DNA from: Sinomonas sp. R1AF57
GTDB taxonomy: Bacteria > Actinomycetota > Actinomycetes > Actinomycetales > Micrococcaceae
Reading direction: 5' to 3'
Assembly: GCF_002224485.1 (NCBI RefSeq)
Contig: NZ_CP022463.1
Span: 1,708,817 to 1,772,816 of the forward strand
Length of the DNA stretch: 64,000 bases
Of the stretch, positions 27,102-54,016 are shown piece by piece. Within the stretch, counting starts at the first letter, position 1; every line of letters begins with the position of its first letter. The notes below the pieces were generated by a model. That model saw only the letters and a list, made by a program, of their open reading frames with translations. It searched no databases and was not told the DNA's origin. The position numbers and the translations under genes were made by a program.

Positions 27102-28991
<1,890 letters not shown>

Positions 28992-29027
28992 CTAAGAAGA
29001 AGCAGCGCGGTTGGCACATCGTCACCA

Positions 29028-53804: not shown

Positions 53805-53858
53805 CGTGCTTCTCTCCACTTGTCGTCCACTTCCTGCACCGCTCGGCTCCACACACAC

Positions 53859-53881
53859 AAAAGCCCCTCGCACGGAGGGGC
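53859..53881 (-). terminator. attenuator terminator in the leuS leader
   Basis: On the minus strand GCCCCTC-CGTGC-GAGGGGC is followed by TTTT. It lies between the leader peptide and leuS, 55 bases before the leuS GTG. Confidence 0.75.
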
Positions 53882-53882
53882 G

Positions 53883-53920
53883 GCCGCTCGCTGTCCCGGA
53901 GGCCCCGGGGCGCAAGCGGC
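53883..53920 (-). promoter_or_regulatory. RNA helix between leader peptide and attenuator
   Basis: On the minus strand GCCGCTTGC (53920-53912), which begins at the leader-peptide stop codon, can pair with GCGAGCGGC (53891-53883) with one G-U pair. The second arm abuts the left arm of the terminator. Alternative pairing of GGGGC (53906-53902) with GCCCC of the terminator is also possible. The real antiterminator fold is not resolved here. Confidence 0.4.
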
Positions 53921-53946
53921 TAGCGAAGGAGGAGGATGCCACGCAT
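53920..53946 (-). CDS. leuS leader peptide, eight residues with three Leu codons
   Basis: ATG-CGT-GGC-ATC-CTC-CTC-CTT-CGC-TAG encodes MRGILLLR. The -10 hexamer TAGCAT (53958-53953) lies six bases before the ATG, so the mRNA would be leaderless and the peptide would be read by the first ribosome. Three consecutive Leu codons followed by RNA hairpins and a terminator before a leucyl-tRNA synthetase gene is the design of a ribosome-mediated leucine attenuator. Confidence 0.7.
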
Positions 53947-53958
53947 GCGAATATGCTA
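53947..53958 (-). promoter_or_regulatory. -10 element of the leuS transcript
   Basis: TAGCAT on the minus strand, six bases before the leader-peptide ATG at 53946. Confidence 0.55.
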
Positions 53959-53982: not shown

Positions 53983-54016
53983 CGCGCACGACGGCGAGCG
54001 CTCGCCGTCGTGCGCG
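53983..54016 (-). terminator. terminator of the glpDFK operon
   Basis: A 16-bp perfect stem (53983-53998 with 54001-54016) lies 18 bases after the glpK stop and just upstream of the leuS promoter. No T-run. Confidence 0.7.

Follow-up and report, generated by a model that had tools for sequence, protein, structure and literature searches.

A leucine-rich, probably leaderless leader before leuS in Sinomonas and its apparently strict geometry across actinomycete families

We looked at the region upstream of leuS in Sinomonas sp. R1AF57, within a window of 64,000 nucleotides (contig NZ_CP022463.1, positions 1,708,817 to 1,772,816), by which we mean the whole stretch of DNA that was analysed. In this window, leuS is preceded by a short leucine-rich reading frame and an intrinsic terminator, and a second leucine-rich reading frame lies before leuA. 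The features are listed below with the evidence for each; strand 3 and strand 4 designate the two arms of the terminator stem.

53953..53958, minus strand: -10-like hexamer TAGCAT, 6 nt before the leader start (sequence)
53952-53947, minus strand: spacer ATTCGC between TAGCAT and the leader ATG (sequence)
53920..53946, minus strand: leader reading frame ATG CGT GGC ATC CTC CTC CTT CGC TAG, encoding MRGILLLR*, presumed leaderless (sequence, conserved)
53926..53928, minus strand: CTT, the last Leu codon and the best conserved of the control codons (codon counts in relatives)
53912..53920, minus strand: helix strand 1, GCCGCTTGC, which begins on the final G of the stop codon (fold, covariation)
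53902..53906, minus strand: GGGGC in the loop of helix 1:2, a weak candidate antiterminator partner of strand 3
53883..53891, minus strand: helix strand 2, GCGAGCGGC, pairing with strand 1 over 9 bp (fold, covariation)
53863..53881, minus strand: intrinsic terminator stem-loop GCCCCTC CGTGC GAGGGGC, 7 bp, 1 base after helix 1:2 (terminator search, fold)
53854..53862, minus strand: T-run and conserved tail TTTTGTGTG, directly after the terminator stem-loop
51309..53804, minus strand: leuS, with a GTG start at 53804-53802 (sequence, LeuS comparison)
28964..29017, minus strand: second leucine leader, before leuA, GTG...TGA, with TATGGT at 29029-29024, six nt upstream

The order of parts that an earlier note had proposed for leuS (a -10 hexamer, 6 bases, ATG, an eight-residue peptide, a stop, a 9-bp helix, a terminator and a T-run) was confirmed base by base. 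When the leuS upstream region was searched for terminators, 1 was found, against a mean of 0.1 in shuffles. The fold of the window's element was mildly better than that of shuffles (z -1.72, 10/200 shuffles being equally good), and such a mild value for a single sequence is no proof alone; the proof is supplied by the comparison with relatives. The Rfam 15 families gave 0 matches above the gathering score in the window. The leuS frame is open upstream through the terminator (53942-53805, minus strand), so that mechanical ORF calling extends LeuS to the GTG at 53942; this codon could be taken as the start, and the LeuS start is thus open to misannotation. A palindrome with arms of ~17 bp and without a T-run was also seen by eye at 53983-54016, between the end of a glycerol-kinase-like gene and the leuS leader.

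To follow the element among relatives, LeuS loci were compared in 15 genomes of the genus, the own genome included, in 80 named genomes (the best 80 of at least 590 matches) and in a class-wide sample of 158 genomes, 87 of which had a LeuS match at E 1e-60 or better and from which 81 loci were examined. For 57 LeuS places of this class sample no locus was at hand at first; 52 of them were added, and G081, G088, G090, G047 and G021 were left out. The nearest named LeuS among the best 80 of at least 590 was that of Sinomonas notoginsengisoli, at 89%, in a set from which records of the own genome may be excluded. The earlier note had made its reading depend on the conservation of the Leu codons and the terminator in relatives, and both were kept: leader and terminator were present in 14/15 genomes of the genus, own included, and at 60/80 named leuS loci (best 80 of at least 590), these 60 including four loci added from a combined scan (L034, L039, L050 and L099) and one added by eye (L079). 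Among the same best 80 of at least 590, the element was absent at 20 loci, namely all 7 of Kocuria, 2 of Rothia, 3 of Propionibacteriaceae and one each of Arthrobacter (L041), Glutamicibacter (L076), Citricoccus, Auritidibacter, Nesterenkonia, Yaniella, Tessaracoccus and Micrococcus; of these absence calls, L085 and L112 have less than 100 nt upstream, and in L091 the right place was covered by the combined scan only. A strict scan of the class-level loci found the element in 25/81, which is a lower bound because the scan required the TANNNT spacing and LL and because some loci had short upstream DNA (in L146 the leader is cut). The element was also present in 5/18 genomes with a more distant LeuS.

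The combined scan, which asked for a short ORF with LL, TANNNT 5-8 nt upstream and a hairpin with a T-run, was run over the 80 named loci (1.44 million strand-bases); it gave 5 matches beyond the parsed set, and all 5 were leuS leaders. A covariance model built from 30 elements gave a single match in the own genome, at leuS, and one match each in 60 of 120 family genomes, the position beside leuS being checked for six of them. The exact sequence GGGGCTTTTGTG occurs in the own genome at leuS only, with four further places at one mismatch. A second similar genome site (L003) was rejected, as by eye it seems to fall within a coding region and has no leader. One genome of the genus (L005) carries what looks like a natural broken copy, in which the leader start is ATT and the Leu run is lost (CTC CGG GGT), with helix and terminator retained. 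Of the 98 elements parsed in total, two (L074 and L100) yielded no terminator stem, and 95 of the other 96 entered the geometry and complementarity tests. Counts are uncorrected for relatedness, and the covariation analysis counts identical rows once. Judged from this conservation, the leuS leader is a selected element: a real, conserved, leucine-rich and probably leaderless leader.

The evidence for a leaderless start comes from promoter spacing. For this, we used 52 leaders that had been picked by their Leu-Leu-Leu peptide, start codon and length, the promoter criterion not being used; this set holds both members of two pairs with identical elements (L012/L013 and L015/L034). TANNNT was found 6-7 nt before the leader start in 51/52 of them (6 nt in 42 and 7 nt in 9), and in the exception, L094, a GTG three codons upstream fits the same spacing. 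By comparison, it stood at this distance before 0/239 other ATGs of the same regions. The spacing was taken from these 52 leaders, since a larger set of 68 leaders used the TANNNT spacing as a selection rule for 60 rows and was thus partly selected by it. As this is the spacing expected of a transcript beginning at the start codon, the leuS leader transcript probably starts at or within ~1 base of the leader AUG. The leaderless reading of the earlier note fits this spacing well, and the homologue in Streptomyces is reported to be leaderless (PMC8079986).

The last Leu codon of the leader is nearly constant. Among the 68 leaders, in which L013 and L034 are not counted, it was CTT in 62, CTA in 5 and CTC in 1, the control codon of L071 (CTA at position 7) being assigned by hand; among 30 further leaders, it was CTT in 23 and CTC in 7. 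For comparison, the leuS genes of the named loci (best 80 of at least 590) have 187 CTT and 41 CTA among 5013 Leu codons. The first two Leu codons of the leader are less constant and are sometimes lost (LVL, LQL, LPL). A precedent for a rare Leu control codon is the Salmonella leu leader, for which replacing CUA by CUG is reported to have lowered sensitivity (PMC1183508). In Glutamicibacter and kin (L067, L068, L071, L072 and L073, of which L067, L068 and L072 were labelled 'Glutamicibacter-like' by the analyst and are Arthrobacter in their records), the very rare CTA stands at the control position, for example in MNPKRNLA* and MYSQFHLL*; 4/5 of these leaders have a single Leu codon, and in 4 the helix is shifted.

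The distances around the helix are equally regular. Counted from the first base of the last Leu codon, helix 1:2 begins at 8 nt in 80/95 elements, as it does in the window's copy. In 84/95, 0-1 nt separate this helix from the terminator stem, and the loop of the helix varies from 3 to 48 nt. The stop codon begins 6 nt from the first base of that Leu codon in 65/95 elements and 15 nt from it in 24/95; it thus drifts, while the helix stays at its distance from the Leu codon. In many other families, CTT NNN is followed by GAG, GGG or CAG and then by CCG CGC TGA, so that strand 1 lies inside the reading frame, and in most Micrococcaceae, Nocardioides, Kribbella and several Propionibacteriaceae, TAG replaces the GAG-like codon. 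The leader of one Arthrobacter (L042) is of the long kind. In Pseudarthrobacter sp. GA104 (L058), a CAG at the stop position gives a 17-residue leader that runs through helix strand 1, with unchanged Leu-to-helix spacing. From the end of the stop to the terminator there are at least 18 nt in 94/96 elements, with a median of 26 nt.

Helix 1:2 is supported by covariation: 34 cells were changed on both sides, against 8.5 in shuffles, and the score was 0.216 against 0.090, with 0/500 shuffles as high in either case and the score far above that of slid versions. No variation is seen in the 30 aligned elements at three pairs of the helix (CCG/CGG) or at five of the terminator (CCCCT/AGGGG), and 99.5% of the cells of the terminator stem are paired in this alignment. 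The tail after the T-run is conserved across families, mostly as [AG]TG[TC] (TTTTGTGTG, TTTTGCATG, TTTTTCATG). Its [AG]TG was rejected as a start codon, given that its frame relative to leuS varies (0, 1 and 2 are all common) and that the ORFs are unconserved. Pairing of strand 2 with the tail, which would extend the terminator, was also rejected, the native value of -2.62 being weaker than that of shuffles (-4.05 and -3.81). Altogether, the aligned sequences describe what appears to be a strict geometry across many actinomycete families: a promoter six bases before the start codon, and a last Leu codon followed at eight bases by the helix and then by the terminator.

The device is already in print for Streptomyces, in papers of 2005 and 2021. 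Attenuators of leuS were predicted in S. coelicolor and S. avermitilis (PMC1262725, 2005), and in S. lividans TK24, LeuL2 before leuS is reported as leaderless and followed by a hairpin and a U stretch (PMC8079986, 2021). The window's leuS leader is a homologue of LeuL2. It shares with it the leuS gene, the Leu run, the hairpin with its U stretch and probably the leaderless start, which is reported there and agrees with the promoter spacing here; moreover, two of the leaders collected here (L150 and L157) encode exactly MRAVRLLLSEPR, the S. lividans LeuL2 peptide, and have a terminator. The two differ in that the window's peptide is 8 residues long and its last Leu codon begins 6 nt before the stop, whereas the LeuL2-type stop follows strand 1. 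The helix at 8 nt after the last Leu codon is a feature of LeuL2-kind leaders that was defined in this analysis and is not in print.

A leucine-rich leader is also described before leuA of Actinobacteria, as the LEU element or LeuL1 (PMC1262725, PMC8079986). The earlier note had considered leuA to lack such a device. Contrarily, the window has a GTG leader before leuA (29017-28964), which reads GTG CCA ACC GCG CTG CTT CTT CTT AGC TGC CGT GGC GGG GCC TCA CGT CGC TGA, contains CTG CTT CTT CTT, follows a TATGGT by six nt and shares LLLLSCRG with S. lividans LeuL1 (PMC8079986). By its sequence, this leuA leader is leucine-rich and probably leaderless. Since leuA has a leucine-rich leader too, the contrast drawn by the note, with leucine sensed at charging rather than at synthesis, falls. 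LeuL1 differs from the leuS leader in the gene that it precedes and in that no typical Rho-independent terminator is described for it in the S. lividans report. The leuA gene itself has TACAGT six bases before the ATG at 28850 (TACAGT-N6-ATG, 28862-28850, minus strand), and it may thus also be transcribed leaderless from a second start. A likeness with another amino acid is found in the mycobacterial polycysteine sORF attenuators (Canestrari 2020; via PMC9031893 and PMC13236596), which carry their control codons in a leaderless short ORF but use cysteine and are described as regulating the translation of downstream genes (PMC9031893).

With a Leu run before a terminator and leuS, the natural reading is that leucine shortage leads to a stall, to failure of the terminator and to synthesis of LeuS. 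The leuS leader is probably a leucine-responsive transcription attenuator of leuS, with a transcription start at or ~1 base from the leader AUG. The ribosome would begin directly at the 5' end of the transcript, as the promoter spacing suggests and as is described of LeuL2 in S. lividans. With Leu-tRNA charged, it would run to the stop and leave, the GC hairpin would form and transcription would end before leuS. When charged Leu-tRNA is scarce, the ribosome would come to a halt within the Leu run, chiefly on the rare CTT that lies 8 nt ahead of helix 1:2; the terminator would fail and leuS would be transcribed. Some points speak against an attenuator. The close relative L005 keeps helix and terminator without the ATG and the Leu run, no antiterminator is found family-wide, and 20/80 named loci (best 80 of at least 590) are without the element. 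In S. coelicolor, mutating the regulatory codons of the ilvB leader is reported to have had no effect, and the effects of such mutations in the leuA leader are described as inconsistent with classical attenuation (PMC1262725). The loss of the leader in L005 would also suit a plain leaky terminator with a decorative ORF and no regulation. This is very unlikely, as different families retain a rare Leu codon at a set distance from a covarying helix, together with the spacing from promoter to ATG. Control of leuS translation rather than termination, with the Leu codons pairing with the leuS ribosome-binding site, would follow the pairing described for the leuA LEU element (PMC1262725), but we hold it to be highly improbable in view of the conserved intrinsic terminator with its T-run between leader and leuS.

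How a halted ribosome would make the terminator fail is a separate question. A trp-type attenuator requires a hairpin that competes with the terminator. In the textbook arrangement, the ribosome stalled at Leu would cover strand 1, and strand 2 or the loop would pair with strand 3 and exclude the terminator. We measured the complementarity between the region left free after a Leu stall and strand 3 with its loop, and found no excess in 95 elements (-8.78 kcal/mol against -9.92 in shuffles, mean rank 0.62). The same test was applied as a control to six E. coli attenuators, which resemble the window's element in leader codons, helix and terminator; the ranks were 0.00 for thr, 0.23 for leu, 0.05 for trp, 0.02 for his, 0.17 for ilv and 0.00 for phe, so that, in contrast to the leuS family, a competing antiterminator ranks clearly in 4/6. 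Strand 2 with strand 3 and its loop folded worse than shuffles (-3.55 against -5.57), and the Leu codons or strand 1 showed no clear excess of pairing with strand 3, strand 4 or the tail (mean ranks 0.39 to 0.59). Only the positive controls 1:2 and 3:4 stood out, both at rank 0.02. The test loses power in GC-rich sequences, whose shuffles pair well.

We also followed strand-3 pairing before strand 4 exists, the mean of which was 0.31 in the naked RNA, 0.40 in the stalled state and 0.43 with the ribosome at the stop. It rose by at least 0.3 in 15/96 elements, against 4/6 E. coli leaders, and a strict rule (pairing of at least 0.8 with a rise of at least 0.3) was passed by 1/95 elements and 1/6 E. 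coli leaders. In the window's copy, it went from 0.23 naked to 0.67 with a ribosome on CTT, a change not seen when the ribosome stood on either of the Leu codons before it. The weak candidate here is GGGGC, which lies in the loop of helix 1:2 and can pair with GCCCC; when strand 4 has been made, the terminator prevails even so. Masking strand 1 in folds that included strand 4 left the terminator in place in 67/68 elements. Thus, a competing antiterminator seems undetectable across the family by folding, the window's own copy having a weak candidate. Of the ribosome-mediated attenuation layout proposed in the earlier note, the Leu-codon leader with its intrinsic terminator stands, and the competing antiterminator lacks support across the family.

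These results bear on the two ways in which the last step could work. The trp-type mechanism is the one called for by Seliverstov 2005, where the leuS leaders of S. coelicolor and S. avermitilis are named classical and given antiterminator hairpins (PMC1262725), and the GGGGC of the window's copy could serve it. It nevertheless appears unlikely here, for besides the pairing tests given above, strand 2 sits 0-1 nt from the terminator stem in 84/95 elements, so that no loop is left for an antiterminator. The other mechanism, which we put forward tentatively, is a direct block. Helix 1:2 would fold its loop away. With only a few bases, the closed helix and 0-1 nt between it and the terminator, a ribosome halted on CTT would abut the base of the terminator and prevent the terminator from folding. 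On reaching the stop two codons later, it would open the helix and so create slack; it would then leave and the terminator would fold. Such a block, working without an antiterminator, would explain the two fixed spacings and the free loop: 8 nt from Leu to helix in 80/95, 0-1 nt from helix to terminator in 84/95 and a loop left free at 3-48 nt. It agrees also with a stop that drifts while the helix does not and whose end lies at least 18 nt from the terminator in 94/96. There are precedents, as a ribosome close to tR2 is reported to repress termination (PMC4824070), and in the tlrB (yxjB) leader of Bacillus subtilis, which has an intrinsic terminator, a stalled ribosome is described as preventing the terminator, with no overlapping antiterminator identified in that account (PMC6851288). 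The tlrB case differs in that the stall is caused by tylosin and the ribosome itself holds nucleotides of the terminator base, without a helix bringing it near (PMC6851288).

Against a direct block, full termination at tR2 is reported to need more than about 27-30 nt from the stop (PMC4824070), and the median here is 26 nt; a ribosome waiting at the stop could therefore still hinder the terminator, and the model leans on release. In addition, the first helix pairs would lie under a footprint reaching ~10-12 nt beyond the A-site codon. By the reasoning of the tR2 study, 10-15 nt of RNA, counted from the A site, have to be free, and at intermediate distances their results depend on the sequence (~0.8 at 18 nt, and ~0.12 at 17 nt in another series; PMC4824070). 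Even so, the fixed Leu-to-helix distance together with the helix gap of 0-1 nt suggests that the stalled ribosome itself blocks the terminator, and direct blocking is favoured for the last step as a hypothesis. As a general statement, somewhat more doubtful, the actinobacterial leuS leader might work without any antiterminator, helix 1:2 acting as a folding ruler and control being exerted by distance rather than by competing base pairs. While closed, the helix would keep a ribosome that has stalled on a single rare Leu codon close up to the terminator, however long the loop, and would in this way stop the terminator from folding; a ribosome moving on would open the helix and release the slack. 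A narrowly worded search of open-licence papers found no antiterminator-free leucine leader, which is weak evidence of absence.

Beyond the device already known, the points of interest seem to be the fixed geometry and the missing antiterminator. A leuS leader known from Streptomyces is found here to span many actinomycete families with what appears to be a strict geometry, which would make it a cheap reporter for leucine charging on a probably leaderless mRNA. If the missing antiterminator is real, a leader peptide can gate an intrinsic terminator tens of nucleotides away without competing hairpins.
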